Source: Pocillopora verrucosa (taxonomy: Eukaryota; Cnidaria; Anthozoa; Scleractinia; Pocilloporidae). From it: DNA of 64,000 nucleotides. The position numbers and the translations under genes are program-made. Below are positions 15,565 to 54,290 of this stretch, piece after piece. Location: contig NC_089317.1 in assembly GCF_036669915.1 (NCBI RefSeq), positions 1,871,571 to 1,935,570 on the forward strand. Reading direction: 5' to 3'. Numbering within the stretch: position 1 is the stretch's first letter; every line of letters starts with the position of its first letter. The notes below the pieces were generated by a model that saw only the letters and a list, made by a program, of their open reading frames with translations, searched no databases and had not been told where the DNA came from.

Positions 15565-16900
15565 CTGAAAGACATGAAGAGTGCAGTGTGTATACTTAAA
15601 TATGTTCATATAGCTTTGCGTTATCAAAACCTTAAATCCGCATACAAGCTTTGTGGCAGTGAAGATGATCATCTACGCTGAGGATATCTTGTATTTTGCT
15701 TTTGTTACCTGAGATGGTTTTAAATTCTTTACAATTTTTTTAGGATTTTTGTAGAGGATTTGTGCGTTTCAGTTTTCACTAATGATGTAATTACCACCAA
15801 GAAAAGCATGTCACTTTGGTTACACAATTCGTTGGAATCACTGATTTTAAGCAATGAGTATAAGTGAAGATTTTGCTTCGTCACCGCTTGAGGCTGCAGT
15901 CAGGAAGCGTGTTCTGTTAGCGCGCAATTCTTAGAGGAAATATCTGACTACACAACTTTTACTTAGGGGCCTTTTTTATCGTATAAAAACATCGATAAAT
16001 GTATAATATAGTGGCGGTGAAACTGACGCTTTATGGTCAGTTAGAGCGCAAAACGGGACTGAATCACTTTTACTTTTGAAATAGAAACTAAAACCCACCT
16101 AATCTACTGGATGGTGCAATGCTCTAGGTAATCTGAAATAAAGATGCAGAGAGAATGTCAGTAGTGCAGAAATGAATGAAAAAAGCAAAACAAATTAGAA
16201 ATAGACAGAGGACCCTTTTTTTTGTCCTCGAAGGAGGTACAAAACTTATTCTGGCACTTTCAAGGTTTAATTTTTTTTTGGATGCTCTCCCTCTTGTGCG
16301 CTTTATTCTTTGCCCTCTTTCTTCGCTTTCTCTGATAACCATAGTCACGAGAAGAGTTACCAGTTGCCTGTGATTTTCCTGACGTTTTAAAGTTTTAAGA
16401 AAAGTAATCGCGCGCGAACTTCGTCTGCCACAGATGTATCTGACATAGTTTTTTCAACTGACGCGATTTTATGCTCAATTATTAAAATATTCAGAGAAAT
16501 CGGTTAACTTAGACGCGCAATTTTTTTGAAACTTATAAAATTGCTAGCATAAGGATTACGTTTTTCTGTAAAACGACAAAGCAGTTTCGATGTTAATTTA
16601 TATTTACGAAACAAAATGTTCTCTAAAGGCAGCTTTAAAGTTTCAATAGAGAGGCGGGTAGGAAGTAGTCGTGTACAGACTTCCCAGTCGATCGCTGAAA
16701 GCTAGGGTGGTTAAAAGTGAGAAATCATAGATTTTCGATTTCCCACTCGCATAATTTTGCGCTAAAGATCTACAGAGTTTCCGAAAAAGTTAGAGTCACT
16801 TTGTTCTAATGCAAAGTATTGTGTGCCAAAATGAGGGTTACAAGTATTGATTATGATTCACTTTCGATTTAGAATAGAAATTAATTCAAAAATAGCTCAC

Positions 16901-16933
16901 CATGTATCGTTACGCCGGAGGATGCCATGCACG
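16901..16933 (-). pseudogene. Micro-exon relic without CaaX
   Basis: A 33 nt segment is bounded by TATTTCAG and GTGAGC on minus, the same layout and length as the CAIL-encoding micro-exon at 44573-44605. In phase 1 it has no stop and no C-terminal Cys box. It is probably a dead micro-exon belonging to the first exon at 17159. Confidence 0.4.
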
Positions 16934-17039
16934 CTGAAATAGAGAGAGAGAAACAAACGACTTACATGCGATATAATATACCAACGATTATTTACTGGGA
17001 ACATTTAGTCTTAAAATAGAGAACAAGCTTGCAAATTTT

Positions 17040-17159
17040 TTATGTCTTCGATAAATCGGGCAAATCTACAAACAGCTCTAATAGATCTTTCCAGTTTTTT
17101 CTTGCATTTATTATCATTTTCGCGGGCAAATTTGTTGTTCCGTTTGATCTTCTAGGCAT
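17040..17159 (-). pseudogene. MPRRSNGTTN first exon, frameshifted paralogue
   Basis: It encodes 39 residues beginning MPRRSNGTTNLPAKM. Its nucleotide sequence aligns with the MPGRSKATAN exon at 44844, but the frame after the head differs: the CKKKLERS-like reading is in another frame. No good donor is visible. I take it as a decayed member of the MPGRS subfamily. Confidence 0.35.
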
Positions 17160-17693
17160 TTTTAAGGTATGATTCTTAGCGATACAAAGAGAGTACCTCT
17201 TGAACTCTTGTTTTCAACAAGAAGGGTCAATCACAACAGCATTATGTGTGATATATTTTTTTCTGCGCTTTCATAGCTTCTGCTTATATAATCGACGCCT
17301 TCTAAAGCGAAAATCTTTTACGCAATTAGTTTATCTAGCACGGAGATTTTGCTCACTCATTGAACTCCTATCCATTTATGTGGAATGCGAAGGAGAGCAA
17401 CTGATTCTCCCTCTGAGTAGACATATTGCTTTGGCTCTTAGCCCGAACATTGCTATCTAAATTCGAGCAGGGAATATGAATTTCCAATGATATACAATCA
17501 ACCACAGTCATGTTTTATTGCTTACCTTTATGAATGGAAAAGAAACGTGCGGTTTAGATGGCTAACAGCTCTTTCAAGTGAGTTGAAATATACCCAGCTT
17601 ATTTTGGGAATATACGATTTACAAGAAAAATATTGACAATAGTAAAATGACGATTCATGAATCGTTTTTCAAAAATTGATTAAAACTAACCTT

Positions 17694-17964
17694 TTATTGA
17701 CTGCTGCACCAACCTGAAATACAGAGGCAAGAGAGTCAGCTTGGGAGAAGTGAAAAATGCAACGAATCAATATCATGACTAAGTTCGGTATTTACCTTTA
17801 GCGCGACTTTTACTGCGACTTTTATTCGCTTGTGGCGCTTTACGTCCAGTTTTTGTTGTTTTTTTTTGAACAGCTCCTTTCTTCGGCTTCTTTTTCCTTG
17901 CTTTGTTCCTCTTTTTATAACTCGCATCGCGAGTGGAATTACCACTCGGTCCTGCTTTGGGCAT
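17694..17964 (-). CDS. Polybasic CaaX mini-protein ending WCSSQ
   Basis: Exon 1 (17796-17964, 56 codons plus one base, donor GTAAAT) and micro-exon 2 (17691-17713, only 23 nt, acceptor TGTATTTCAG) give a 62-residue protein. It has the head MPKAGPSGNSTRDASY, then a tail of Lys/Arg (KKRNKARKKKPKKG and SRSKSRAK), then GWCSSQ and stop. CSSQ fits a CaaX box with Gln as last residue, which in known families favours farnesyltransferase. A polybasic stretch before a CaaX box is the arrangement of K-Ras-type membrane tails, so inner-leaflet targeting is likely. There is no signal peptide or transmembrane segment. Its close paralogue lies at 43965. An AATAAA at 17514-17519 could end a short transcript. 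Function unknown. Confidence 0.72.
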
Positions 17965-18776
17965 TCTTTCTACAAACTGTTGATGCTTGTCTCCTCAGAG
18001 TTCTACAGTGAAACCAAAACTAACCGCCTCACGCTTTTCCATAGTCTTTGCGCGCGCTTTTTCGCCAATGTGACTTTGACATTTCAAAACCAACTGTTAT
18101 GCACTGTTTTGCCCACAAATGTCTTTCTTCCACAATGTCATTGCTGTTATTTATATGAGTCTGTTTTACTGGAATCACAAAACAACTACCCTCTTTCTAT
18201 TTTATATGGGAAACCCTGCTGGAGTCGATGTCCATCAACTTGGCCTTCAGCCAAATTGCGCCTCATGGCTATCTATCCCTGATAAAAATGTGTTCCCTTG
18301 CTCTTACACTTAAATTGCTTTATTTTCGATGGTTTTTTGCGCAAATTCAGTTTTATTGATTGTCGTTTCGTTTATACAGAAATTTTGGCTTTAGATGGCC
18401 TAAGCGTGGACTGTTAGATCGAATATTGTGTTTAAATACTTTTCTCTGTTAAATTTGATACCACTATCCGCCATCTTGTACAAACAACGCACAACGTTGA
18501 TCATTGAGGTAGAAAGCGCAATTCTCATATCGAGCTCAAAGATTACACAGCTTGATGCGTAAATATAAGACGAAGGATTTGATCTAGCATCCCCTTGAAT
18601 CGAGAATTGAGTTCGAGAAAAGCCGAGGACCGCGAGATTAGGAAGTAGACCGCGAGGCAGAAAACCGAGTCTATTGAAAACGCTGTTGTGTTACGCCGCC
18701 ATATTGAACGAACGACTGAAACCCACACTAAGCGGGACTTCTGAATTTAAGTTAAGCTTACCCCAATAGCGCCTGT

Positions 18777-18955
18777 TTACAGAATACAGCAGCAACAACA
18801 TCCTGAAAATGAAGGTAAAATAAACGGTTGGTTATGTCGAAAAGCAGAATGATAAAACAAGAATAGGCAGATCGTGATTATAGCAGTTTAAGTCAAGGCT
18901 CACAAGCATTACCATAACTTGCATCATTTGTCGTATTTCCAGAACCGCCCGACAT
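18777..18955 (-). CDS. 22-residue CaaX peptide ending CCCCCIL
   Basis: Exon 1 (18913-18955, 43 nt, donor GTAATG in phase 1) encodes MSGGSGNTTNDASY. Micro-exon 2 (18762-18802, acceptor CATTTTCAG) adds GCCCCCIL and the stop, giving 22 residues in all. The CCIL end is a CaaX box with Leu, the class used by geranylgeranyltransferase I, and the Cys run before it could also be palmitoylated. This is little more than the conserved cluster head joined to a lipid anchor. The paralogue at 32527 keeps the same exon lengths and boundaries, which supports the gene. The donor is weaker than in other members. Confidence 0.62.
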
Positions 18956-19601
18956 CTCCTTGGTAGAATCAAGTTTGTGAGAACTTATTGACTGTCGAAA
19001 ACGAGTTTGCCTGTTTGATATGATAGCGCGTTTTATGCCTGCCTAGTTTTTTCCCACGAATTAGACTCTCACGTCATACTTCCATATTTGACAGTTGATT
19101 GTATTCACATATCTGAAATTGGTTTTACCGATTGGTTTTTACGCGGCCGTCCTTGTCATTTTCTCATCATTTGTCTTCCTCTTAGGTGGGTTGTTTGGTT
19201 GCGTCAGTTGTGATGAAAAACAATGAACACGCCTCGGGTCAAAGCTGATTTGTTCAATTCATATCTGCACTCAGAGAAAACGGAAATCTTTCAAACTTTG
19301 CACCTCGTATGAGAAACTGTCGAAGAAGTGAATGATCGAAGTAAACTATTATATCGCGCACAATAAGTGCTAACAAAGCAGCCCTTCACTAAAGTCTTGC
19401 TTTGACATTTTTTAATCTCCATTTGCGCAAAAGAACGTAATCGTTATCTTATAATGCGCGTGAAGATTGTTTTGAGTTTCTTTACCTCTATTCAAAGGAA
19501 ATTCAAACGAATTTCCCAGCCTACTGAAGTTTAACCCTAGATAGCTCCGCCTTCAATGCCTAAACTTCATTTCGCGGTAAAATCTCGTAAATATGAGTGG
19601 C

Positions 19602-19874
19602 CTAACCTAATTTTGGAATCTGTACCACATGGGCCGACTTCCCCTTTGAAGTATTTTTGCAAATTTTGCTCAATATCATTTCATTTCCACTTTCTCGGGC
19701 GCCAATGAGTCTGTTCACTGATGCCTTTAAAATGTCGACGGTAGTGGTACTCCTCTTGATTAATGCCGTGGACTGTAGCCCTCGATATTCCTGGCAATAT
19801 TCCGGTAAATAAATCATTTTGAGACATCCTGTCGTGCCTTCTCGAATTACTATGCTATCGATTTTTTTTGACAT
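19602..19874 (-). other. 90-codon open frame beside polyadenylation sites, repeated five times
   Basis: The open frame starts MSKKIDSIVIREGTTG and has no recognised domain. Related sequence lies near 22230-22450, 28100-28300, 30740-30900 and 33190-33400, in most cases just downstream of a cluster polyadenylation signal. In the other copies this frame is broken by stops, while a different frame stays open in some. That pattern suggests a repeated non-coding segment or an old captured element rather than a maintained protein. Confidence 0.3.
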
Positions 19875-19966
19875 CGGTAGGGATACTTAGTCTCGGATAT
19901 CTACAGCAGAAATACCACTAATAACTCAGGAACAAGAACACAACTCAAATTACTTTTGTTGTAATG

Positions 19967-20413
19967 TTTATTGACTCTATCTCTGTCAGATCTTTTACAT
20001 CAGTTCCTCTGCTTTCTCTCTGCGAGCAGAATGATGACTGAAATGTTACAATGCTTTGTCATCGAACGTAGGTCAAATAAACAGCACCAGAAATCATACG
20101 TTCCAAAAGTGTCTAAGGTTAAGAAATACTCGATTGTGAAGTCTCTTAGAAGTGAGAATCCCAACTAAGAACTAACCCAAATAGAAACCATTTTAGCCAA
20201 ACGAACTATGATCATCAAATTTTTGAAAACCGTAATCATCTGCAAACTCCAGCTGGACTACAATTGCCTTCGCTATACGAGGAAACAATTTTGTTTTAGG
20301 CTTCGGAGCGCGAACAAATAGTGACAACTGCAAGTAATTGAACACGAGAAACTACATCAGTCCTTGTGCAAAAGGGCTTCATTATTCCTCCTTCTAAACT
20401 TGGTCTTTGGCTT
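19967..20413 (-). other. Terminal exon, unit at 20.4 kb
   Basis: The acceptor CGCCTTTCAG ends at 20414 and AATAAA lies at 19967-19972. In phase 1 this copy hits TAG after AKDQV because one A of a TTTTAG stretch is missing; relatives at 24662, 28824 and 31431 stay open. It therefore works as 3' UTR only. Confidence 0.5.
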
Positions 20414-20758
20414 CTGAAAGGCGAGGAAATCTGATTAAGTATGGTTAACAATGAATACAGTAGCCTGAACGGATGGTAAACGAGTCGGTTTGAATTCAGA
20501 AACGATTGCTACACTCGACAGAATTGTTTCCAACGTCTTAGTGTAAGCCAAAACGAGGCAATTACGCGATAATGTGTATTTTGCTACTGGCATGAAGAGA
20601 TTAAACAATTCTGGTTCCAAATACATTAAGAAATGGTTTGTTATGCTAAGCACCCTTTCTAGAGGGTTAAATTTATCGCCTATTTCGCGAATAACCGAAC
20701 TAGAATAGAAAACAGTATAAAAACAATAATCACTTTCGAAAGAGTAGCGAAAATTTAC

Positions 20759-20787
20759 CTTTTAAATCACTGATCATTCGCGCCAGC
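20759..20787 (-). pseudogene. 29 nt micro-exon with the CaaX Cys lost
   Basis: It is bounded by a TTTTTCAG acceptor and GTAAATTTT donor. In phase 1 it reads GWRE and stop. Relative to GWCSSQ at 17713, the TGC (Cys) has become CGC (Arg) and the frame after it differs, so no CaaX box remains. The same 29 nt exon recurs at 22731-22759, 24994-25022, 29178-29206, 31786-31814 and 34270-34298 with intact splice sites. Confidence 0.5.
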
Positions 20788-20877
20788 CTGAAAAACAAGT
20801 GAAAGGAAGATTTAGTAAGTGTTGAGCGATGGATGAAGGAAGATTTCCGCCATGTTGTAATGGTTTACTTCGAGCAG

Positions 20878-21024
20878 TTATTCTTCGCAACATCGCGAGA
20901 AAGCGTTGCGGCTGAGGACCGCGTGTACTCTGTTAAGAGCTGTGTTAGATCTTTTGACTTGTTTTTCGCTTCTATAATTCGCGTCGCGGACAACTTTTGC
21001 GGTTGTGCTGGATCTTCCGGGCAT
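20878..21024 (-). CDS. MPGRS-type exon, Cys-poor paralogue
   Basis: Read through without splicing it gives 48 residues: MPGRSSTTAKVVRDANYR, a basic middle KQVKRSNTALNR, and an end RCCEE. The head aligns with GNSTKDASY but most Cys positions of the metallothionein-like members are replaced. A GTACAC donor follows NR, so it may instead splice to the micro-exon at 20787. A TATA-like ATATAAGC lies upstream near 21098. Expression and function are uncertain. Confidence 0.35.
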   Translation of the reverse strand: MPGRSSTTAKVVRDANYRSEKQVKRSNTALNRVHAVLSRNAFSRCCEE

Positions 21025-21273
21025 TTTAGAGAGCTGGTTCGCCAGTAGCACGTCAAAAATTTCCTCTCGACCCCAAGAAAGTTCGATCACCGTAATATAA
21101 GCTAAATGTTTTATCATTTTTGTCATTTGCTTTAAGAGGAATGCACAACAAAGGTAAAAATAATTGAGTAAGAATATCAATGACTCGTGGCGCGAAATGT
21201 TGCAACAATTTATACTGAGTGGACAAAGACGAAATTTGTTGCAGACCTGTTCTAATCCCTAATTGAGTCGATT

Positions 21274-21375
21274 TCAGGCGTTCTTCGGCTTTGGTTTCGG
21301 TGACTTTGGTTTCGGTGACTTTGGTTTCGGTGGCTTTGGATCTGGAGGGGGATTCGGCGTTGGTTTTGGTGGCAT
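21274..21375 (-). CDS. Pro/Lys-rich mini-protein MPPKPTPNPPPDP
   Basis: An unspliced 33-residue frame begins MPPKPTPNPPPDPKPPKPK and continues with KSPKP repeats to a TGA. A TATAAA box lies 84 bp upstream (21459-21464), and the same TATA context precedes the paralogues at 25581, 37604 and 40864. It lacks a CaaX box. The Pro-rich paralogues at 45275 and 52738 keep a phase-1 donor and join a CaaX micro-exon, so this copy has probably lost its anchor. The Pro-rich sequence should be extended and disordered. Confidence 0.4.
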   Translation of the reverse strand: MPPKPTPNPPPDPKPPKPKSPKPKSPKPKPKNA

Positions 21376-21458
21376 AATTTTCAGTGGTTGAATTGTACGA
21401 ACAAGTTGACTCACAGAGACCAGCAGAGGTAGACGCTCAACTATTTATAGCAGTGCTA

Positions 21459-21464
21459 TTTATA
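21459..21464 (-). promoter_or_regulatory. TATA box of the 21.4 kb Pro-rich exon
   Basis: TATAAA on minus, in the context CTCGCTATAAATAGC, 84 bp before the ATG at 21375. The same context recurs upstream of the other Pro-rich exons. Confidence 0.55.
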
Positions 21465-22730
21465 GCGAGACGCACCGAAACCGAAGAATCACATGTACGA
21501 TCTTGATAGCTGTTAAGTTTGAGCGCAAAAAACTGCTTACCAAGCGTGCTTACGAAGAATTTTGGAAGACAGTTTCTTTTTCGAATCATATTTGACTTGT
21601 TTCGAGTATAATGTTTCAACAAGGTCGCAAGACAGATTTTTGCGCTAAGTAGAGATGTCTGTGAATTATCCTATTTCTCCCCACCTCACCGATTGCGCTC
21701 AATCGATTAACCAAGCAAAATTTGGTTTTACCGCAAAAAAAAACCGGGCTGTCCATGTCATTTTCTCATCATTCATCTTCGTCAAAGGTGGGTTGTTCGG
21801 TTGCGTCAGTTAGTTGTGATAAAAAACAATGAACGCGCCTCGGGTCAAAATTTGTTTCATTCATATCTGCACTCAGACATATCGAAATTCTTTTAAACTT
21901 TGCGCCTCGTATGAGAAACTATCGACGAAGTGAATGATCGAAATTAACTCTCATCGCGTATAATTAAGTGCAAACAAAGCAGCTCTTCGAGGTGTTCTTG
22001 TTTTGAAATATCTTAAATCTCCATTTGCGCAAAAAACGTAATCATCTTTAAATGCGCGTGAAAATTGTTTTGAGTTTCTTCATTCCTATACAAAAGCAAT
22101 TCAAACGAATTCGCTGGCCCTGCAGCAATTTAACGCTAGATAGCTTCAATACCTGAACTCCATTGCGCGGTAAAATCTCGCGAATATTTATGAACTAACC
22201 TATTTTGGAATCATCACCACTGGGCTGACTACCCATTTGAAGTATTTTGCATATTTCTCTCAGTTTCATTTCCAATTTTTCGGGCGCCAACGGGTCTATT
22301 TACCGATGCCTTTAAAACGTCGATGGAAGTAGTGCTTCTCTTGATTAGTGCCACAATATTCCTTCCAATATATCTGGTAAATAACCCATTTTGAGACATC
22401 CTGTCGTGCCTTCTCGAATTTCTGTGCTATCGATTTTGTTTGACCTCGGTAGGGATAGGTTTGAATTCAGGAACGAGAGATAACTTTGCTACACTCGCTA
22501 GAACTATTTCCAACGTCTTAGTGTATGCCAAAACGAAGAAATTACGCAATAATGTTTATTTTGTTACAGTGATGAAGAGATTAAACAGTTCCGGATGTTA
22601 AGAAATGGTATGTTATACTAAGCACTCTTTCCAGAGGGTTGAATCTTTCGCTTATGGCGCGGATAACCGAATTAGAATAGAAAACAATATGAAAACAATA
22701 ATGACTTTCGAAAGAGGATCGAAAATTTAC

Positions 22731-28320: not shown

Positions 28321-28372
28321 CTGCTAATTACTCAGGAACAAGAACAAAACTCAAACTACTTTTGTTATAATG

Positions 28373-31785: not shown

Positions 31786-32052
31786 CTTTTAAATCACTGA
31801 TCATTCGCGCCAACCTGAAAAACAATGGAAAGGAAGATTTAGTACATGTTAAGCGATCGAGGACAAGATTTCTGCCATGTTGTAATGGTTTACTTCGAGC
31901 AGTTGTTCTTCTCGCAAAATCGCAAAAAGCGTTGCGGCCGAGGACCGCGTGTACCTCAGTTAAGAGCTGTGTTAGATATTTTGACTTGTTTTTTCGCATC
32001 TATAGCTTGCGTTGCGGACAACATTTGCGGTTGTATTGGATCTTCCGGGCAT
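31786..32052 (-). pseudogene. MPGRSNTTAN exon plus dead micro-exon
   Basis: The exon from 32052 to 31972 reads MPGRSNTTANVVRNASYR, then CEKTSQNI and stop. It is a close copy of the exon at 29446 with the same lysine-run frameshift. The micro-exon 31786-31814 lacks CaaX. Confidence 0.45.
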
Positions 32053-32348: not shown

Positions 32349-32527
32349 TTACAGAATACAGCAGCAACATTTGTCTGAAAATGAAGGTAAAATAAACGGT
32401 TGGTTATGTCGAAAAGCAGAATAATAAAACAAGAATAGGCAGATCGTGATTATAGCAGTTTAAGTCAAGGATCACAAGCATTACCATAACTTGCATCACA
32501 TGTCGAATTTCCACAACCGCCCGACAT
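32349..32527 (-). CDS. 22-residue CaaX peptide ending KCCCCIL
   Basis: Exon 1 (32485-32527) encodes MSGGCGNSTCDASY and ends in phase 1 at GTAATG. Micro-exon 2 (32334-32374, acceptor CATTTTCAG, donor GTAAGC) adds DKCCCCIL and stop. The 22-residue product has six Cys and ends in the CaaX box CCIL. Exon sizes equal those of the paralogue at 18955, while the amino acids differ (GC against SG, STC against TTN), so the exon structure has been kept through sequence change. Expected to be cytosolic and lipid-anchored; function unknown. Confidence 0.65.
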
Positions 32528-33919: not shown

Positions 33920-34438
33920 CTGAAAGGCGAGAAAATCTGATTGAGTATAGTTTACAATGAATACAACAATCTGTGTGGATGGTGAAAGAGTCGATGTGAA
34001 CTCAGAAACGAGAGATCTCTCTGCTACACTCGCCAGAATTATTTTCGATGTCTTAGTGTAAGCCAAAATGAGGCAACTAAGCGATAATGTGTATTTTGCT
34101 ACTGTGCATGAAGAGATTAAACAATTCTGGTTCCAAAGATATTAGGAAATGGTATGTTATGCTAAGCACTCAGAGGGTTAAATCTTTCGCTTATGGCGTA
34201 AATAACCGAATTAGAATAGAAAACAGTATAAAAACAGTAACGACTTTCGAAAGAGTATCAAACATTTACCTTTTAAATCACTGATCATTCGCGCCAACCT
34301 GAAAAACAATTGAAAGGAAGATTAAGTACGTGTTTAGCGATCGATGAAGAAACGCTGATCGTTTCCGCCATGTTGTAAAACCCCGCATGACTGGTTAAAG
34401 AAAGATGGGAACTTGTGCTTAAAACTTACTTGAAATCA

Positions 34439-34665
34439 TCAGAGCAAAACACACCAGCAGTCATCATGTTTACACGAACCTGGAATGGTGAGGAACGAAT
34501 AAATCTTTAGTGGTATTTGGCGTTTTCAAGCCCATTAAAGATAAACCACTACTTACACTGGCCTTTTCGACAACCGTCTTTGCATTTAGAGGTACAGTGG
34601 CCACATGGACGATGGTAGCTAGCGTCCTTCGTGGAGTTGCAACAAGCGCACGATTTTCCAGGCAT
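34439..34665 (-). CDS. Metallothionein-like CaaX protein ending CWCVLL
   Basis: Exon 1 (34557-34665, donor GTAAGT, phase 1) encodes 36 residues: MPGKSCACCNSTKDASYHR, then PCGHCTSKCKDGCRKGQ. Micro-exon 2 (34430-34479, acceptor CATTCCAG) adds CSCKHDDCWCVLL and stop. The product has 49 residues and 11 Cys in CxC, CC, CxxC and CxxxC spacings, with many Lys and two His near the Cys, like metallothioneins. Unlike classical metallothioneins it has Tyr and Trp and ends in a CaaX box, CVLL, of the geranylgeranyl class. A membrane-tethered metal- or redox-handling peptide is a reasonable inference. Broken copies lie at 10135 and 14374. Confidence 0.75.
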
Positions 34666-35542: not shown

Positions 35543-35765
35543 TTAGAGTATAACGCACTTTTCGCACCAACCTGGGAAAGCGGAGAAGAATTTTCTGTCA
35601 GACGCTGTTTTTTTCAAATCTCGCAATAGAGAAACATAACTTACAGTGGTGCTTTGTACAGTTATCTTTACATGCTTCATTTTTTAAGGTAGGACAGTCT
35701 GCTTTGTGGCATGGATAACCAGCGTCTTTGGTTGAGTTGCTGCAAGCACAAGATTTCCCGGGCAT
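35543..35765 (-). CDS. Metallothionein-like CaaX protein ending EKCVIL
   Basis: Exon 1 (35645-35765, donor GTAAGT, phase 1) encodes MPGKSCACSNSTKDAGY, then PCHKADC and NEACKDNCTKHH. Micro-exon 2 (35536-35571, acceptor TTTCCCAG) adds CWCEKCVIL and stop: 49 residues with nine Cys and three His. It is the sister of the gene at 34665, with the same head, length and split, but different residues between the Cys. The CVIL end is a CaaX box with Leu. No signal peptide. Metal binding is inferred from composition only. Confidence 0.75.
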
Positions 35766-39549: not shown

Positions 39550-39796
39550 TTTATTTCTACATCGATGTGATATCCTTTCAATTGCGAAGAATAAACGAAT
39601 AATTATTCTATGATTTACTGTGATGAACTCTGACAAAATTACGAAATGTCTATTGTTAACAGTTCCTTTACTTTTAACGTCTAATGCTTGTTTGCTTGAA
39701 GAACGCAAGAACAGGTCAAAGAGATAATTCTTCGGTTTCTTGAAGTATCATCAAGGTCGTCATCTACTCTCTTCGTCCGTTTTGCTCTTGAAGTTC
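39550..39796 (-). other. Terminal exon, duplicate of the 36.5 kb one
   Basis: The acceptor ends at 39797 and AATAAA lies at 39550-39555. Phase 1 reads GTSRAKRTKRVDDDLDDTSR and on to ANKH with stop, the same as the left copy. Confidence 0.5.
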
Positions 39797-41279: not shown

Positions 41280-41667
41280 TTAATTGGCTCGATGGGAAAA
41301 CGAGAAAACGATTCCATAATCTGCAATATCTGCGTCACCCATCCTCCAAGTCGACTCGTTGTTGGTGTCCGAACTTCTAGTCGAGTCTTTAGAAGTGTCT
41401 GTCGTTGTCGAATTGTTAAAGTAGTCGTAGTCGAGTTGCCGGTGGTGTTCGTGCTCGTAGTCGAGTCGCTGGAGGTCTCCTTGTCTTTGTTGTGTTCCTT
41501 GGTAGACGCTGAAATGAGAGTGAAAAAGTGTTTTTAAGATGTCTCTAACATAAAATCTTACGTCGAACAATGGTATTTACTTTTCGTGCTATTGTTGTGA
41601 CTCATGAAGGCGTAGTATATAACACTTCCAAATCTTGGTTTCCTATTAATCCCGATTTGCATGACAT
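41280..41667 (-). pseudogene. MSCKSG gene, right copy, donor lost
   Basis: Exon 1 from 41667 reads MSCKSGLIGNQD, but the donor TGGTAAGT of the left copy is TTGGAAGT here. The second exon (from 41508) is open in phase 2 throughout: VYQGTQQRQ, a His/Tyr/Asp-rich stretch, then NNSTTTDTSKDSTRSSD and WRMGDADIADYG. So the copy with the working donor has the short frame, and the copy with the long frame has the dead donor. Confidence 0.4.
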
Positions 41668-42559: not shown

Positions 42560-42963
42560 TTTATTGCCTCTATCTCCTCTAAGTCCTCTACATTTTTGCG
42601 CCATCCACAAGCGAATTTGTAACTGAAGCATTACATCGCTTTCTTAACAAGTCAAATAAAACAGCGCTAAGCCAAAAAATGTAAAAAATCGCAGAGTACT
42701 TGAAAAAATCCGCAAATTCAATCGAAGTAACGAACTCAACCAAAAACTAAGCATTTCATGCACTGTACTCTTAAACCGAAAACTTTCTCAAACTTACAAA
42801 GATCAGTAACCTACAACCATTTACTTAATAAGAATAAAACAGTCTATCAAAGGTGTGCAACGTTTCCAAACTGTAGATAATTCCAGAAACTTGAGAATAA
42901 GGAACACATCAGTCCTTGTGAAGGGCTTCATTAGTTCTCTTCCAAAAAGCTCATCTTTGGAGT
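42560..42963 (-). other. Terminal exon, 43 kb unit, open in phase 1
   Basis: The acceptor TGCCTTTCAG ends at 42964 and AATAAA lies at 42560-42565. Phase 1 is open from 42963 to the TAA at 42821: SKDELFGRELMKPFTRTDVF, then LKFLELSTVWKRC and CFILIK. It shares [AP]KD...MKPF..RTD[VA]F with 49980, 31431 and 28824. Confidence 0.45.
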
Positions 42964-43499: not shown

Positions 43500-43965
43500 T
43501 CATTGACTGTTGCACCAACCTGAAATACAAAGGCAAAAAAGTCAGCTTGGGAGAAGTAAAAAATGCAACGAATCGATAACATACCTAAGTTCGGTATTTA
43601 CTTTTGGCGCGACTTTTACTGCGACTTTGATTCGCTTGTGGCGCCTTACTTTTCTTTTGGATTTTGGTTTTCTTTTGAACAGCTCCTTCCGCTGGCTTCT
43701 TTTTTCTCCCAGTGTTCGTCTTCGCTCCTGCTCTGAGCATTCTTTCTATGGTATCACGAATAACCGTCACAGAGTTCTGTGGAGTCGTTGCGCGCCTTTG
43801 TTTCTTTTTGCTTCCAGTGTTGCCCGCTTGTGGTGCTTTACGTTTGTTTTGGATTTTTGTTTTCTTATGAACAGCTCCTTCCGCTGGTTTCTTTTTTCTC
43901 CCAGTATTCCTCTTCTTGTAACTCGCATCGCGAGTAGAATTACCGGTCGCTCCTGCTCGGGGCAT
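43500..43965 (-). CDS. Polybasic CaaX protein ending WCNSQ, internally duplicated
   Basis: Exon 1 (43602-43965, 121 codons plus one base) and micro-exon 2 (43497-43519, 23 nt, acceptor TGTATTTCAG, donor GTATGT) give 127 residues, the longest member. It begins MPRAGATGNSTRDASYKKRN. A module NTGRKKKPAEGAV, KKTKIQ, KAPQA occurs twice, separated by SVTVIRDTIERMLRAGAK. It ends SRSKSRAK, SWCNSQ. The duplication roughly doubles the basic tail of the paralogue at 17964. CNSQ fits a CaaX box with Gln. The very basic chain suits binding to acidic membranes, though RNA or DNA binding cannot be excluded. Confidence 0.75.
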
Positions 43966-44576: not shown

Positions 44577-45275
44577 TTACAGTATAGCGCAGGACGCCCA
44601 CCAGCCTGAAATAGAATTAAAACATGTCAAAATATAAGAAGAAAAATGACTTACAAACGATATAGCATGCTAATGATGGTTTACTTCGATCAGTTCTTGG
44701 CAACATTGCGCGACAGCGTTGTACCGCGGGCTGAGAATTGCGTATGCATCTTTGAAGAGCTCTGGCAGAGCTTTCGACTTGTTTTATGCATCTATAACTT
44801 GCGTCGCCGACAGCATTAGCTGTTGCTTTGGATCTTCCGGGCATTTTAGAGAGATGGGTTTATCTGATGGGGAGACAGTGGCTCGTCAACTCTTCCCTTC
44901 CTCTTGACAGCGCGAACGATCGATCACAATGATGCGTAAGCTAGGTTTCTTCTACCTCTTTTGTAATGTGTTTTAACATACGTGGCGCATTCTAAGACAG
45001 AGATCGTATCTACGATTACTTGCATTCAACAAACAGATTTTGCTGACCGAAGTTATTTCTAACCGTTCAAGGGGAACGTCAAAACAAATTAATTGAGTAG
45101 TAATATTACTGTGACATGTCATGCGAAAATTTGCGACAAACCTCGAATACGAACATTTCATACTGAGTGGCTAGAAGAAAAATAGAATACAGCCACCGTC
45201 CTTTGGCGAACACGGTCGTGGCGGAGACGGTGTTGGCGGATCTGGAGGGGGATTTGGTGTAGGTCTTCCCGACAT
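44577..45275 (-). CDS. Pro-rich CaaX mini-protein ending SCAIL
   Basis: Exon 1 from 45275 to a weak GTGGCT donor at 45196 encodes MSGRPTPNPPPDPPTP and then SPPRPCSPKD in phase 1. Micro-exon 2 (44573-44605, acceptor CTATTTCAG, donor GTGAGT) adds GWWASCAIL and stop, giving 35 residues with CaaX box CAIL. The micro-exon is sound; the pairing is less sure, because the MPGRSK exon at 44844 lies between them and could be its partner, though that exon has no clear donor. Confidence 0.45.
44617..44844 (-). pseudogene. MPGRSKATAN exon lacking a clear donor
   Basis: The frame from 44844 reads MPGRSKATANAVGDASYR, CIKQVESSARALQRC and on to RCRAMLPRT. The GTACAC donor of its paralogues is GCATAC here, so normal splicing to the CAIL micro-exon at 44605 is doubtful. 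Confidence 0.35.
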
Positions 45276-47411: not shown

Positions 47412-47600
47412 CTTTTACAGCAGTACACAGTCGTCGTCATATAGTCTGAAACATAGACGCAAAAGATGTTAGCGATCGAAAGACAAATGCTGAAATGACG
47501 CAGTAATAAAACAGACATTTAGTTATTTTTCCCGTTTTTCGACGCAACGTTCGAACATTTCTGTTTAGAGTTTCTGCTTTTGAGCATTTTTTCTCCTGGC
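47412..47600 (-). pseudogene. Broken Lys/Cys CaaX gene, left copy
   Basis: The exon sequence CKKLGDNSQEKKCSKAE matches the right copy at 50557. A one-base deletion shifts the frame after KAE, and the GTGAGT donor is TTGCGT. The micro-exon 47412-47445 has lost one base, so the DDCVLL end is out of frame. A longer frame reading upstream to MATVKSKRADVSS runs into a dispersed repeat and is not a gene start. Confidence 0.55.
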
Positions 47601-47921: not shown

Positions 47922-48112
47922 TCACAAGATTACGCATGAACCTGAAAAAGCCAAAGAAAGAAAGTAAGTTTCTCAAAAGCGAAAGCGAATACGTTTTACT
48001 GTCGAGACTTACACCATCCTTTGTCTCTGCTTGTGTTTCCTGTGGGTCCTGCCTTCATGACAAATCCTATGTCTTCGTTCAAGTTTCCTGTCGATTCTGA
48101 CTTTTCAGGCAT
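47922..48112 (-). CDS. 39-residue CaaX peptide ending CSCVIL
   Basis: Exon 1 (48013-48112, donor GTAAGT, phase 1) encodes MPEKSESTGNLNEDIGF, then VMKAGPTGNTSRDKGW. The head motif therefore appears twice (TGNLNED and TGNTSRD), suggesting internal duplication. Micro-exon 2 (47914-47941, 28 nt, acceptor CTTTTTCAG) adds CSCVIL and stop. The product has 39 residues, only two Cys (both in the tail) and CaaX box CVIL. It is positionally equivalent to the CTIL gene at 51050 but quite different in sequence. Confidence 0.65.
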
Positions 48113-48903
48113 ACCTAGAACTCTCTATGTACTTTCGATGCTAACACGACCGATTTCGCCTCGACAACTCGTGCCAATCTAGCGTGCACCAGTTTTTTAT
48201 GACGTCTGTGGGCGGATTATGTCCACCGTTGTGTCATCTTCTGATTGGCTCTCAGATTTGCTGAATAGGCACTTCCTCATATTTACGCGAACAACAAACA
48301 TTAAGATCTACGGCTGTTGCATTTTGTAATGAACCATTTTTACAGTACGTGTATATGGTTTTCACTCATGCTTTTAGGTTTTTGCAACGAATTCCTCAAG
48401 CTTGGTTTCTCTCAAGACTATTTTTGTATGAATCACGCGCCTGAATCGGCCATATTATACAAACGATAAACGAACTCGGAATCGTCGACCTGATTTTTCA
48501 AAGAAAAAAAAAACGCGCTCTCATGTAGAACAAGTATGGTTACATGATTTAAGAAATGTAGAATGATAAAGCTTAGTAAATGTAGGACACTAGCTTTGCG
48601 CACTCTTTTGAATTAATAAATTGGTTTTACTACGAAAGATTACGATGGGAAAACGCAAACAATTTCCACAAAATTTGCGCGTATGTTTGACGATAGTGTA
48701 GTAGGCTCTTAACTTGATAGAGAACAGATAATTTTCATCGAATTGAAGACGACAATTTAATTGAGTTTGCCTAAAAATTGGAAATTTTACTCAAAACACT
48801 CCAAAGTCACTTGGGAACAAGTTCTACTGCGGGAATCATTCATATTAAAGCTTCTTGCGTTTAACAGCTTTAAGAACACAAAATTCTTACCTCATCTCTT
48901 GTG

Positions 48904-49099
48904 TTAGAGAATCGTGCCACACGCTGAAAAAGAATTTAGAAAAAATACATTAGAGGATTCAAGTTGAAAGCACGATGCAACGACAAGAGTACTTACGGGA
49001 GCAGCAACAACAGCAATCTCTATCATGAGGAGATCCCCCCGTTCAATAATCCGCGTCACAAGTCGTATTCCCACATGCTCCAGACGTACCGCAAGGCAT
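48904..49099 (-). pseudogene. Cys-rich paralogue with in-frame TGA and lost CaaX Cys
   Basis: Exon 1 (48997-49099, 103 nt as in the intact paralogue at 52059) reads MPCGTSGACGNTTCDADY, TGA, then TGGSPHDRDCCCCCS with a good GTAAGT donor. Micro-exon 2 (48891-48923) gives CGTIL and stop, where the paralogue has CCTIL, so the Cys four from the end is Gly. Two defects point to a pseudogene. Its Cys content (nine apart from the TGA) is much higher than in the paralogue. TATAAA lies at 49175-49180. Confidence 0.5.
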
Positions 49100-49174
49100 A
49101 TTTCATACTAAGTTTTTAAGTCTCTGGGAAGTAGAAGGTTAACGCACAATTTTACTTTGAATGACTCTTCTGCG

Positions 49175-49180
49175 TTTATA
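49175..49180 (-). promoter_or_regulatory. TATA box of the 49.1 kb copy
   Basis: TATAAA on minus in GCATATAAACGCAGAAG, 76 bp before the ATG; the same context lies at 52136-52141 before the duplicate. Confidence 0.6.
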
Positions 49181-49476
49181 TGCCCAACGCAGCCAAACGA
49201 TAAGGGTTGTCAATAACTGTAAATAATTGACAGTTTCATTGTGGAAGCGTTCATCATGATGTGGTAAAAATTGTGCTTATTAAGGCATTTTGAGACAAAG
49301 TTCCTTTGCGCATTTATTTTTAGCCTTCTCAGAATTAGTTTTTCATCATAAATTGGCGTAAATTGGTTTAAAAATGATTAAAAGCTTAGGCGCTGATGCG
49401 CAATTTAAGTAAGTCGAACGAACTGCATAGTTGCGCTTCATCCGCTTGAAATGAAAAAGTCGTCCACCTTTCAACG

Positions 49477-49505
49477 TCATTGCAAGAAGCAGCGTTCGCG
49501 AGATC
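49477..49505 (-). CDS. Orphan CaaX micro-exon ending RCFLQ
   Basis: The exon 49468-49505 (38 nt, acceptor TTTTTTTCAG, donor GTGGAC) reads GSRERCFLQ and stop in phase 1. CFLQ is a CaaX box with Gln. It is the duplicate of the micro-exon at 52407-52444, but its own Pro-rich first exon was left out of the duplication. It could be used only by a first exon further upstream, such as 51050 or 52059. Confidence 0.45.
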
Positions 49506-49564
49506 CTGAAAAAAAGAAACAGACAGATTTATGTCACACAGCTCATGTTACTTTCTTCGTGATG

Positions 49565-49980
49565 TTTATTGACTCCATCTCTGTTAGGTCTTTTACATCC
49601 GTTCCTGACGCGCACCATACACGCGCAAATTGATAACTTAAATGTTTCATCCTTTCTCATCGAACTCAGTAAATAAACACCATCAAATAGTCAAATAAAC
49701 ACCACCAAACCGAAAAGTTACATAGTAAAAAAATCCTTATCGTGAATTGATAGAACTAACAAGCTCATCTTAAAACCAGCTATTTCGTGCACTACACCCC
49801 TTAACCGAAAACTCAAAAGATTAGTAATCTAAATTATCTCCCTAATACGAGTAAAACAGTCTGTGGTAGTTGCGCAACGTGTCCAAACTGTAATTAACTC
49901 CAGAACTTTATAAGGGAGAAACACATCAGTCCTCTTGACGAAGGGCTTCATTCTCTTCCAAATAGCGTGATCTTTGGGGT
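49565..49980 (-). other. Terminal exon, 50 kb unit, open in phase 1
   Basis: The acceptor TGCCTTTCAG ends at 49981 and AATAAA lies at 49565-49570. Phase 1 is open from 49980 to the TAG at 49829: PKDHAIWKRMKPFVKRTDVF, then YKVLELITVWTRC and IREII. It is similar in protein to 42963. Confidence 0.45.
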
Positions 49981-50330
49981 CTGAAAGGCAAGACAAACAG
50001 ATTAATATTCTGTAAGGTTTAGTACTACAGGCCTTAATGTAATATATTGTGTTAGTTAGGATACGAGAATAGCTAGAATCATTTCTGAAGTCTTCGTCTA
50101 ATGCTAGACAATTGCGTGCGAATGTTTATTTTCACACTTTGCATGAAGCATTTAAACAATTCTCGTTCTTTCAACCGAGGATCAAGACTAACAAATTCTC
50201 TAGTTTGCTGAAAATTCTTTCAAGTGAGTTGAAGTGTATCTTGCTTGATGAGCAAATTACAAGAAAAGTGTAGACAAGAATATAAGAGCGATTTTATGTC
50301 AATTTTGCAAGAGTGTAAAAAATTTACCTT

Positions 50331-50557
50331 TTACAGCAGTACACAGTCGTCGCTTTCACATTCTGAAAAAAAGACGCGCGAAAAGTTAGCGATCGAAAGG
50401 CAAATGCTAAAATAACTTAGTCACGAAACAGAGTCCTTATTTACATTTGGTTGTTTTTCCCAATTTTCGACTCACCGTTCGGACATTTCTGTTTGGATTT
50501 TTCTGCTTTTGGACATTTTTTCTCCTGGCTGTTGTCGCCTAGTTTCTTGCATCGCTC
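50331..50557 (-). CDS. Lys/Cys-rich CaaX gene ending DDCVLL, 5' end unclear
   Basis: The exon ending at 50476 (GTGAGT donor, phase 1) is open from 50557 and reads CKKLGDNSQEKKCPKAEK, then KQKCPN. Micro-exon 2 (50328-50362, acceptor TTTTTTTCAG, donor GTAAAT) adds ECESDDCVLL and stop. The tail resembles HDDCWCVLL of the gene at 34665. No in-frame ATG exists in the open part; a TAA sits just upstream and a dispersed repeat begins there. The start was either destroyed by insertion or lies in an unseen upstream exon. The CaaX box CVLL is intact. Confidence 0.4.
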
Positions 50558-50870
50558 TTACGAGAAGCTCTTCCTCGATTGCTCAAACGAACAGCTCTTC
50601 TATCGCTCTGACGAAGGACTAACGCTCAAAACGTCAGCCTTTTAACTCCTTACGGAGGCCAATTTACGTTATCAACTCAGTTTATAACACTAAATTACCC
50701 TGTTAAACTCTCCCACCGACGTAGCACAACAGTTTCTTTTGAAAATCATATCCTTTTTTCATTTTCTAATAACATGTATCAAGTGTTATCTCAAATATCA
50801 GGAGAATGCGCGAAAGTAAGCTATTGTGTGCGGCAGTAGCATATAAACTAAGACAGGCTTACCTTTTTTG

Positions 50871-51050
50871 TTACAAGATTGTGCACCAACCTGAAAAAGC
50901 CAAAAAAAGACAGTAAGTTTTTCGAAAGCGAAACCAAACTTATACGTTGTACTGACGAGACTCACTAAACCAACTGTCGTTGTCACTGTCAGGTTTTCTA
51001 ATGTCTTTGTCTTTGGTCGTGTTTCCTGTTGTTCCTGAACTTCCAGGCAT
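50871..51050 (-). CDS. 34-residue CaaX peptide ending SWCTIL
   Basis: Exon 1 (50966-51050, donor GTGAGT, phase 1) encodes MPGSSGTTGNTTKDKDIRK, then PDSDNDSWF. Micro-exon 2 (50863-50890, 28 nt, acceptor CTTTTTCAG) adds SWCTIL and stop. The single Cys of this 34-residue protein is the CaaX Cys, so conserving it makes sense only as a lipidation site. The middle is acidic and polar, the opposite of the polybasic members. It is positionally equivalent to the gene at 48112. Confidence 0.65.
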
Positions 51051-51863
51051 ATCTAAAATTTTATATGTGCTCTAGATGCTAACACAACCGACTCAAGATC
51101 TCATGCCCAGTTATCTCTTAAATGTGGCAATGCTATTTGCGCGCCCTAGTTTATTATATGATGTCATTCTGGGCGGATGTTTTCACTGTTGTGTCATCTT
51201 CTTATTGGCGGCTCTCAGATTTTGCTGAATAATTCATGTCTCATACTTCAGCGAACAACAAAAAATAAAATCTAGGGCTGTTGCTTTCTGTAATGAACAG
51301 TACATGTACATGGTTTTCAGACATGCTTTTAGGTTTTTACAAAGAATTCCTCAAGCTTAGTTTCTTTCAAGACTACATCTGTATGAATCACGCGCCTGAA
51401 TCCGCCATATTGTACAAACGATAAACGTGTGCCGAATAGTCGACGTGATTTCTCATTAAAAAAAAAAAAAACGGCGCGCTTTCATGAAGAACAAGACTGG
51501 TTACATGATTTAAGAAATGTAGAATAATAAAGCTTACTGAATGTAGGACACTAGCTTTGCGCACTCTTTTAAATTATTCAATTCGTCTAACTACAAAGGA
51601 TTACGAAGAGAAAACGCATACAATTTCCACAAAATTTACGCGTACGTTTGACGATAGAATAACAAGCTCTCTGAAATTGATAGGGAACAGATATTTTGCA
51701 TCGATTGAAGACGAGAATTTAACTAAGTTTTCCTAACATTCGAAATTATACTCAAAACACCCTAAGGTCACTTGGGAACAAGTTCTGCTGTGGGAATCAT
51801 TCACATCAAAGCTTCTTGCGTTTCACAGCTTTAAGAACACAAAATTCTTACCTCAACTCTGTG

Positions 51864-52059
51864 TCAGAGAATTGTGCAACACGCTGAAAAAGAATATAGA
51901 AAAAATACATTAGAAGATTCAAGTCGAAAGCGTGATGCAACGATAAGATTACTTACAGGAACAGCTACAACAGTGATCTCTGTTTTGATAATGTCCCTCT
52001 GTAGGATACCCCGCGTCAGAAGTTGGATATCCACTTGCTCCAGAAGTACCGTAAGGCAT
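51864..52059 (-). CDS. 40-residue Gly/Tyr/Cys CaaX peptide ending CCTIL
   Basis: Exon 1 (51957-52059, donor GTAAGT, phase 1) encodes MPYGTSGASGYPTSDAGY, then PTEGHYQNRDHCCSCS. Micro-exon 2 (51852-51883, 32 nt, acceptor TTTTTCAG) adds SCCTIL and stop: 40 residues, five Cys all in the last eleven, CaaX box CTIL. TATAAA lies at 52136-52141, a normal distance for a short 5' UTR. The duplicate at 49099 is broken. Confidence 0.68.
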
Positions 52060-52135
52060 ATTTGATACTAAGTTTTAAGCCTCTAGGAAGTGAAAGGTTA
52101 ACGCACAACTTTACTTCGAATGACTCTCTTCTGCG

Positions 52136-52141
52136 TTTATA
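52136..52141 (-). promoter_or_regulatory. TATA box of the 52.06 kb gene
   Basis: TATAAA on minus within GCGCATATAAACGCAG, 77 bp upstream of the ATG at 52059. Confidence 0.6.
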
Positions 52142-52415
52142 TGCGCGACGCATCTGTAAATGATTGACAGCTTTATTGTGAGAACTTTTCCCTTGGCGTG
52201 GCAAAAAAAAGTGCTTACTAAAGCATGTTGAGACAAAGTTCCTTTGCGCAATAATTTTCAGCCTTCTCCGAATGAGTTTTTCATCGTTAATTGACGTAAA
52301 TTGGTTTGGAAATGATCAAAAGCTTGTGCGCTGATGCGCAATTTATGTAAGTCGAACGAATTGCATCATTGCATTTCGTAAACTTGAAATATAAAAATGC
52401 GTTTACCTTTTAACG

Positions 52416-52738
52416 TCATTGTACGACGCAGTATTTGCGAATTCCTGTGAAAAGAAATGGAAAGTCTTAACCATTTCCAAGAATCAAGACAGTTTGCTTG
52501 GTTTAATGCATGATCCTGCCTGGCGCTAGATATCAAAACTTATTGAACACAAACAACGTATCGCCGACGTGTAACGCATCGCGTCAAAACCGAGAGAGAA
52601 AAGCGACCCCTTAACGAATGAAATAATCAAGAATCTATGAAAATATCTACATCTACCTTTTCGTGGCTGTGGTTCAGGTTTCCGCGGAATTGGAGGGTCA
52701 TCGGGGCAATTTGGAGTCGGTCCCCCTTTTCCTGACAT
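52416..52738 (-). CDS. Pro-rich CaaX peptide ending KYCVVQ
   Basis: Exon 1 (52657-52738, donor GTAGAT, phase 1) encodes MSGKGGPTPNCPDDPPIPRK, then PEPQPRK. Micro-exon 2 (52407-52444, acceptor CTTTTCACAG, donor GTAAAC) adds GIRKYCVVQ and stop, giving 36 residues. The basic IRKY just before CVVQ is typical of CaaX tails, and Gln as last residue favours farnesylation. This is the right-most member of the cluster. It shows that the Pro-rich exons elsewhere (21, 23, 25, 29, 37, 40 kb) are relatives that lost the anchor. Confidence 0.68.
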
Positions 52739-52739
52739 A

Positions 52740-54290
52740 GATTCGTTTGTTAAAAGTTCCGTTCCGCACTTTGTTATCGTAACGCTTATTTTAATTCTAG
52801 CCCAACTAGACTTAAGAATTTGAAAGCGAATTAAAAATTTACGTGTTATTCCACACGAGGGAAATTACGTTCAGTTCGGTTGATTGACAGATCACAAAAT
52901 GTGCTGATTGGATAAAAAAGACGCGTTTCTTACCATGGAACTGGAGATTTTGGTGCACTGAAATCCCCTAATGAAAAGAAAATTTTAAAAAATACCTCAA
53001 TGATATGCATGGACATGCATGGATTCTGACGACGCACCTAGTCACAACCGTAGTTGTCTTTCATGGAAAGTTGTGCATACGATTAAAAAAATTGATTCCA
53101 CTTACCTTGGTTTCACTGCAGAAAAACGCAAAACACGTTTGGAGTATGTCGATGTTTTTGAGCTACGTGTTCACGATCTTTGTGGTTTTCACGGCATGTG
53201 TCGATTTCAAGGGCGGAACATGGTGTAGTTCGGTTGCCACGCAATCGATCGTGGGACTTACCCCTGTGATCTATGTTCAAAATACTTTAGACGCAAAATT
53301 TAGAATCTCTCCATCACTGATTCTTGTAACAACCATAAGAACGCACTGTTAAAAGACGGTGAAAATTGCGCAGGGGTCATGTTGTCTCCGTTTACCGAGC
53401 TTCGTGCGTCGCTTGTGGCGGGTTTAGAATCGTAGCACGGAAATTAAAGTAAACTGCTGTGTGGTCACTTTCTTCTCTTTCTGTGATTTGACGCATTATT
53501 TGTTTCTGAACACGCACCCGTCAACCTTCAGCTGGCCTTCTACACGTGCCAAGCGCCAATGAATTCCCCCAGGATGATACAGCTGATTTGTTGTGGCGGG
53601 TTTTTACTTTCGCAACGTAAGCACGTTTCCTTTTCCAAAAAAACCCGCCAACAAAGCAGTTTCGAGATGATTAATGCGTCAAATATGTGCTTGGAAAGCA
53701 TTTTCAAAGATGCTGTTGATGCATTTTCTATTCTTGGTTGATTAGCTGTCGCTCAGATGGTGCCACTTCGGCGCGGAATTCTATTAGAGTCGACGTGGTG
53801 AATGATTTTGTTTGGTTAATCCTCGTTGTTTTGTTAACTTAGCATTATCTCATGACGACCTTGGCCAAAACCGTTCCCTTTTTTGGTAATGTAAACGCCA
53901 TGGCACCAGCTTCCATTGTCATCGTAATCAAGATTGTTGACTTCGTCTGTCATTCAAAATGCTTGCGGAAAACCTAAATTATTTTCAATACAGAAACCCC
54001 TTTGTTCAGGTTGTCTAAATTGATAGCTTTCAGTTTCTTGCACGTAGGGTTTTTTCCGGCCAGGTGGAGTGGCTGTCTCCCATTGGTAGATATTTTAGAT
54101 CGCGAGTTATATGCTTCGTAAGCACTTTCATTTAATTGTGAGACCCACGTGGGGCCTAACCTGATTGGTCGAAAGTTTCAGGTAAAAAAATTTCCCTTCA
54201 CACACGAGTGTGTCAGGTATTTTTCCCTGCTCAAGCGTTTGCATCAAAACATTTCACCGCCTCGGTATCGCCAGTCTCTATCGATTTTCA
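52740..54290. other. Right border of the cluster, no convincing gene
   Basis: Two overlapping plus-strand frames (53005-53352 and 53019-53228) exist, but they conflict with each other and match nothing in the window. I see no cluster head or micro-exon here. Confidence 0.4.

Follow-up and report, generated by a model that had tools for sequence, protein, structure and literature searches.

A tandem gene cluster with CaaX-ending micro-exons: a possible, so far undescribed family of mini-proteins tethered to membranes

Proteins that carry a C-terminal CaaX prenylation box are known from several systems. Fungal a-type pheromone precursors are described as short polypeptides ending in CaaX (PMC3068285), animal G-protein gamma subunits as small proteins that are geranylgeranylated when X is Leu (PMC9678972), and HIPPs as CaaX proteins with an HMA domain, a group reportedly confined to vascular plants (PMC12940333). 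In Drosophila, a protein prenylated by geranylgeranyltransferase I (GGTase-I) has been argued to take part in germ-cell guidance, either as the attractant itself or as a component needed for its release, and a review of the subject prefers Hedgehog for the attractant, with G-gamma-1 as the component that is prenylated (PMC12752509). Taxonomically restricted small proteins are also known from corals, where the Cys-rich, duplicated SCRiPs begin with a signal peptide and space their Cys residues in a fixed pattern (PMC2652719). Here we describe a locus in the 64-kb stretch of DNA presented above (hereafter the window), whose minus strand carries, from about 52.7 down to 16.1 kb, tandemly repeated tiny genes with a CaaX box on the last coding micro-exon. 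The cluster is, to all appearance, a tandemly expanded, fast-evolving gene family, and it points to mini-proteins that would be tethered to membranes and belong to a family so far undescribed. The reading that we prefer, at a probability of roughly 0.6, is that these are fast-evolving cytosolic mini-proteins, tethered to membranes by a geranylgeranyl (CxxL) or farnesyl (CxxQ) group and presenting their variable heads. Repeat sequences in the window look like those of stony corals, and the source is probably one. All features below lie on the minus strand unless stated otherwise.

We scanned the window for micro-exons with an acceptor score of at least 4, phase 1, 4-15 codons to a stop, and a donor scoring at least 2.5 within 20 nucleotides (nt) past the stop; these settings were picked after the genes had been read, and none of them concerns the C-terminal residues. 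The minus strand yielded 15 phase-1 micro-exons, 13 of which place a Cys exactly fourth from the stop (Cys-4), each of the 13 carrying Leu or Gln as its final residue X. The other two lie at 48923 (CGTIL, a decayed copy of the exon at 51883) and 37984 (HDNKGGDLE). No micro-exon was found on the plus strand in any of three phases, while minus-strand phases 0 and 2 gave 11 and five, respectively, with one Cys-4 apiece (FRVVICSAQ at 9955, and LYDDDCVLL at 47445, where the 50362 exon has been copied but its reading is shifted). In 200 dinucleotide shuffles (minus strand, phase 1), the mean was 0.535 micro-exons and 0.015 with Cys-4 (maximum 1), and none combined Cys-4 with X = Leu/Gln; set against the 13 observed, these figures rule out a chance origin of the CaaX boxes. 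Other thresholds placed Cys-4 in 12/14, 15/18, and 18/21 minus-strand micro-exons, with Leu or Gln as X in 12, 14, and 15, and the loosest of them returned seven on the plus strand, none with Cys-4. When 3-codon exons were admitted, Cys-4 was found in 13 of 21, the six added exons being the WRE/WHE type described below. An initial scan made without the donor condition was far less selective (43 candidates on the minus strand, 22 on the plus strand).

Counting an orphan CFLQ exon, the cluster holds 14 CaaX ends, which fall into nine lineages by our own grouping of duplicates. Cys-4 is thus present in 14 exons and missing from the six WRE/WHE exons and from the CGTIL copy. Across the 14 ends, Cys is encoded by TGC 12 times and by TGT twice; X is Leu in nine (CTG, CTC, TTG) and Gln in five (CAA, CAG); and the stop is TAA in seven, TGA in six, and TAG in one. 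The a1 position takes seven different residues, none of them charged, Pro, or Gly, and a2 is aliphatic in 12 of the 14 ends (I, L, or V) and Ser in the other two, CNSQ and CSSQ. The amino acids at Cys and X, and the stop, are fixed while the DNA varies. The first-pass annotation had proposed a lineage-specific family of prenylated mini-proteins, and the sequence supports this in part: a tandemly duplicated family that keeps CaaX on its last coding micro-exon is indicated by the retention of Cys, X, and stop while codons and a1 change, and by two gene pairs under purifying selection (below). The 12 CaaX exons and the CFLQ orphan that it listed are all present where it placed them, each with Cys fourth from the stop; a 14th, CTIQ at 16.1 kb, had been omitted.

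Eleven gene models are intact, that is, open and with splice sites and CaaX preserved. Each consists of a head exon and a micro-exon separated by a phase-1 intron of 49-212 nt; the micro-exon contributes 20-41 coding nt up to the stop, and the next donor follows 3-15 nt past the stop. The predicted spliced products are 22 to about 127 amino acids long, and automatic annotation would easily miss such genes, the last coding exon contributing so few codons. Besides CaaX, the strongest common feature of the family is the N-terminal head. Heads may be acidic, Pro-rich, Cys-rich, or polybasic, and most share M-P/S-G...G-N-[ST]-T-x-D-A-[SG]-Y; the MPGxS start noted earlier applies in part, but MSGG, MSGK, MPRA, MPKA, MPYG, and MPEK also occur.

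At the upstream end of the array, the 52.74-kb gene joins a Pro-rich head (MSGKGGPTPNCPDDPPIPRKPEPQPRK; exon 1, 52657-52738; donor GTAGAT, phase 1) to CVVQ (coding part 52416-52444; acceptor score 8.9, donor 9 nt past the stop). The 52.06-kb gene (MPYGTSGASGYPTSDAGYPTEGHYQNRDHCCSCS; exon 1, 51957-52059; intron of 73 nt) ends in CTIL (51864-51883), as does the 51.05-kb gene (MPGSSGTTGNTTKDKDIRKPDSDNDSWF; exon 1, 50966-51050; database relative P0006; exon 2a, 50871-50890). A second CaaX micro-exon, CVLL (exon 2b, 50331-50362, phase 1), for which we found no separate first exon in a compatible phase, joins the 51.05-kb exon 1 in frame and is a candidate alternative last exon of that gene. The phase-1 exon 1 is in frame with either end, and the product would close with ...SWFSWCTIL or with ...SWFKCESDDCVLL. 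The copy of exon 2b at 47.45 kb reads CVLL in phase 2, and the fit has therefore been lost there. The idea that every CaaX exon belongs to a separate gene was rejected: it holds for the 11 models but not for the 50.3-kb exon, which fits the 51.05-kb gene, nor for the orphan at 49.5 kb. This orphan, CFLQ (49477-49505), is a duplicate of 52416-52444 whose first exon falls outside the duplicated block and whose best post-stop donor scores 1.2. Likewise, the degraded duplicate of 51864-51883 (48904-48923) reads CGTIL, with Cys-4 replaced by Gly, and is paired with a broken exon 1 (the 49.1-kb copy, 48997-49099) that contains an in-frame stop.

Further along the array are the 48.11-kb gene (MPEKSESTGNLNEDIGFVMKAGPTGNTSRDKGW; exon 1, 48013-48112; relative P0003), ending in CVIL (47922-47941); the 44.84-kb gene (MPGRSKATANAVGDASYRC...CYIV; exon 1, 44655-44844; intron of 49 nt), ending in CAIL (44577-44605); and the 43.97-kb gene, with a long polybasic head (MPRAGATGNSTRDASYKK...; exon 1, 43602-43965) and CNSQ (43500-43519). 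Two genes have Cys-rich heads, at 35.77 kb (MPGKSCACSNSTKDAGYPC...; exon 1, 35645-35765; relatives P0001 and P0002; CVIL at 35543-35571) and 34.67 kb (MPGKSCACCNSTKDASY...; exon 1, 34557-34665; CVLL at 34439-34479). Two others encode only 22 amino acids and end in CCIL, at 32.53 kb (MSGGCGNSTCDASY; exon 1, 32485-32527; micro-exon, 32349-32374) and 18.96 kb (MSGGSGNTTNDASY; exon 1, 18913-18955; micro-exon, 18777-18802). The 17.96-kb gene has a polybasic head with database relatives (MPKAGPSGNSTRDASYKK...; exon 1, 17796-17964) and ends in CSSQ (17694-17713). The last CaaX micro-exon, CTIQ (16104-16132), lies beside a head near 16.4 kb that lacks an ATG at the expected start (relatives P0024 and P0025). 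The survival of CFLQ and CTIQ next to heads that are absent or have no ATG shows that a CaaX end can for some time outlive the gene it belonged to.

Duplication is evident throughout. Self-comparison of the whole window gave 128 matching pairs at E <= 1e-10, including blocks at 42.4-39.1 versus 39.1-35.9 kb (95.5% identical), 52.5-49.8 versus 49.5-46.9 kb (79%), and 32.3-30.0 versus 29.7-27.4 kb (89%), and the array contains many copies that are broken or without CaaX. In several units a further exon begins about 350-540 nt past the last micro-exon. The example downstream of the 51.05-kb gene (49841-49980, of which only the start, 49980, was located) has counterparts starting at 42963, 33919, 31431, 28824, and 24662; we take exons of this type as 3' untranslated region (UTR) because their reading frame differs among copies by eye. 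Another recurrent downstream exon begins with GAACWTCA (starts at 39796, 36536, 15564, 11182, and 6578); by eye, it could encode an acidic tail in some copies and has a broken frame at 11.2 and 6.6 kb. Conserved coding exons of either type were rejected in view of frame-breaking indels among copies, again by eye. Six nearly identical WRE-type micro-exons (GYTGGCRCGAATGATCAGTGATTTAAAAG; the first at 34285-34298, the others starting at 31814, 29206, 25022, 22759, and 20787) are flanked by good splice sites and read WRE/WHE-stop in phase 1; they may be a retained UTR exon or serve as an alternative end.

We also approached the genes from the head side, taking ATG open reading frames (ORFs) that fit a permissive head motif, drawn up once the heads had been read, and joining the best donor to the best acceptor with a minimum intron of 50 nt. 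The pattern matched 19 ORFs on the minus strand and one on the plus strand, and the first-choice splice led to a CaaX box in 8 of the 19 minus-strand heads. For the 34.67-kb head, the first choice was a WRE exon, giving CWRE, and CVLL came second. Two intact genes were missed: at 44.84 kb, the 49-nt intron is under the limit, and at 18.96 kb, a later donor outscored the one in our model. The remaining 8 of the 19 led to no CaaX: the broken 49.1-kb copy, with its stop and lost Cys, four Pro-rich ORFs, and three ORFs of the MPGRSN/MPRRSN type. For the 43.97-kb gene, the test favoured a donor after 43650, likewise in phase 1. Head donors scored 0.3-3.9 where a score was obtained, lower than the 2.8-8.1 of the post-stop donors. 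Seven Pro-rich mini-ORFs (MPPKPTPNPPPDPKPP...; starts at 45275, 40864, 37604, 29770, 25581, 23308, and 21375) resemble the 52.74-kb head, with a usable donor and a CaaX exon absent. Long Ser/Thr/Asp-rich exons at 41540 and 38220 follow MSCKSGLIGNQD-like heads among the CaaX genes, and one of the two copies looks out of frame by eye.

We counted changes pair by pair to see whether the exons evolve as coding sequence. Two diverged pairs show purifying selection: 35.77/34.67 kb, with 22 synonymous changes over 26.3 sites and 27 nonsynonymous over 108.7 (pN/pS 0.30, p = 2.4e-8), and 43.97/17.96 kb, with 16 over 39.0 and 15 over 147.0 (pN/pS 0.25, p = 2.7e-5). The remaining pairs gave weaker or opposite results: pN/pS was 0.73 (p = 0.25) for 44.84/40.45 kb, compared over exon 1; 0.11 (p = 0.048; three synonymous changes, one nonsynonymous) for 40.45/37.19 kb, ORFs of the MPGRSN/MPRRSN type that stay open and lack CaaX; 1.04 for 51.05/48.11 kb; and 4.4 for 32.53/18.96 kb, where nine changes divide into 0.5 synonymous and 8.5 nonsynonymous. 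Purifying selection is not seen between recent duplicates. Pooled over the ungapped stretches of four such pairs (five comparisons, one of them involving the broken 49.1-kb copy), nonsynonymous change was 0.222 and synonymous change 0.223 per site, as against 0.129 for introns and flanks within these blocks (p = 4e-4 for nonsynonymous versus introns, p = 0.05 for synonymous versus introns). Because both classes of site exceed the introns, we do not take this as strong evidence of positive selection; rapid diversification, relaxed constraint, or recombination that replaces exons may each account for it.

Three protein searches returned 21, 7, and 2 hits (28 distinct), which are closely related to the heads at 17.96 kb (17 hits), 16.4 kb (four), 35.77 kb (two), 13.26 kb (two), 48.11 kb (one), 51.05 kb (one), and 29.45 kb (one) and come from other public contigs. 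No hit carries a name or a listed Pfam domain, and in all 28 the spliced C-terminus is absent, the sequence continuing into the intron or stopping. The family thus extends beyond the window, perhaps no further than the same or a sister species, and the searches agree with a lineage-specific family as far as the database covers animals. The head at 13.26 kb is a basic mini-ORF (MPPKKNERNVTPNPNTKEAIYK...KKAKK; start at 13262) with a stop just ahead of a donor and no CaaX, and a database cluster of 31 members (P0022) is almost identical to it. No relative turned up in the viral contigs that were scanned, none was confirmed in prokaryote genome contigs, and Rfam gave no match at gathering scores. 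Among the abstract openings listed by literature searches, no description of such a family was seen. Next to the cluster, a multi-exon gene seems to begin on the plus strand (54300-54600; MDPKVAKLLEGKSDEDRIKAIAFSFG...); two readings of a flanking ORF and three further peptides had no Pfam match. A degenerate G-rich tandem repeat (units like GATAACTTGGGGGGTATTACAA) occupies 58440-58900.

Nine of the 11 products were scanned against Pfam (seven at E up to 10, two at E up to 1). Only weak matches below cut-off appeared: YKL023C-A for the 17.96-kb product, and Tc-R-P (E 0.0059) and DUF842 (E 0.045) for the 44.84-kb product. No G-gamma domain was found in these nine, and most of the products reach about half the length of G-gamma at best and, unlike it, come from a tandem, fast-evolving family. 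The two Cys-rich proteins (35.77 and 34.67 kb) share with HIPPs a Cys-rich, possibly metal-binding part plus CaaX, but neither matched HMA, a metallothionein model, or any other Pfam family. The SCRiP spacing Cx6-7Cx4-6CPx3-6Cx4-6Cx5-6CCC occurs in 0 of the 11 models. With fungal a-type precursors, which in some fungi are encoded by clusters of several genes, the likeness is limited to short length and CaaX and serves as an analogy; the present genes, probably from an animal, differ in their conserved N-terminal head, X = Leu or Gln, two-exon structure with a CaaX micro-exon, and chemically diverse heads.

We then considered how such products might reach a membrane. The variable head exon would be joined through the phase-1 intron to the CaaX-ending micro-exon, and the remaining mRNA would be 3' UTR, since the stop sits just ahead of another donor. 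The protein would be made in the cytosol, because no N-terminus resembles a signal peptide by simple hydropathy: across the 11 models, the top 9-residue average near the N-terminus ranged from -0.94 to 1.61. Ends with X = Leu would be geranylgeranylated by GGTase-I and those with X = Gln farnesylated by farnesyltransferase (FTase); trimming by RCE1 and then methylation by ICMT would follow, and the product would stay anchored to the cytosolic side of membranes. RCE1 acts before ICMT in CaaX processing, and a Cys next to CaaX can be palmitoylated. In some members, a polybasic stretch or a palmitoylated extra Cys beside CaaX would aid membrane hold, and further acylation may occur on the CCCC/CCCCC members. 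Both strongly polybasic genes (net charges of +21 and +33) have X = Gln, a combination that recalls polybasic-plus-farnesyl membrane targeting. The micro-exon would thereby act as a portable anchor. What the DNA shows directly is how the genes are built, the constraint on Cys-4 and X, and coding constraint in two gene pairs. We infer from the motif that the CaaX ends are prenylated; expression, splicing, lipidation, location, and a function of whatever kind are likewise putative. If the junctions are used, these proteins, some of just 22 residues, have a lipid anchor on its own micro-exon as their sole common C-terminal feature; the anchor exon would then be one that different head types reuse, and the genes would supply a defined set of candidate prenylated peptides in animals.

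Three rival readings are less likely. In the first, which is unlikely, the prenylated and methylated products would be cleaved, exported by an ABC transporter, and act between cells (in mating, settlement, or self/non-self recognition) as yeast a-factor does. Short precursors with CaaX and no N-terminus like a signal peptide, encoded in a tandem multi-gene cluster, speak for it, as does the greater divergence of coding parts than introns in recent duplicates, which recognition peptides might show. Against it, the conserved head is the part that a precursor of the a-factor type would discard, no common cleavage site was seen by eye, and the excess in exons is not confined to nonsynonymous sites. 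An improbable extension of this reading is an animal lipopeptide system, in which an array of cassettes would attach a common prenyl-anchor micro-exon to diversifying heads, with a choice between alternative CaaX exons and birth-and-death evolution, and the products would serve as recognition or signalling peptides, a counterpart in animals of fungal pheromones. The second rival, as unlikely as the first, is a mostly dead array whose CaaX was functional in an ancestor and whose present copies drift unexpressed. The many broken or CaaX-less copies, the pooled pN/pS near 1 between recent duplicates, and the lack of a spliced relative among the 28 hits favour it; the 11 intact models, the purifying selection in two older pairs, and the retention of Cys-4, X, and stop with changed codons in nine lineages, which drift would hardly produce, argue against it. 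The third and least likely holds that the heads are the products, with proteins ending a few residues into the intron through intron retention or other splicing and the micro-exons mainly untranslated or alternative. Database relatives do carry the unspliced reading, and relatives of the 13.26-kb and 16.4-kb heads (P0022, P0024) keep an ORF that stops ahead of any CaaX exon. However, those relatives bear no mark of being transcripts and read as predictions on unspliced DNA, and CaaX is concentrated in the phase of the heads (13 of 15 in phase 1, against 1 of 11 and 1 of 5 in the other phases).

The proposed lipids can be compared with a yeast assay of human enzymes, in which human GGTase-I modified CTIL, CVIL, and CVLL completely with geranylgeranyl and left CAHQ and CVLS unmodified (PMC11152559). 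The same paper gives L, I, and M as the X residues that GGTase-I accepts, and reports that CVLL is modified in an FTase-dependent manner too, by human FTase, so that the lipid may vary; its text does not mention CAIL, CVVQ, CCIL, or CSSQ. All 14 ends have an X residue accepted by GGTase-I or FTase (nine Leu, five Gln), and CxxQ would be assigned to FTase, in line with the behaviour of CAHQ (PMC11152559).

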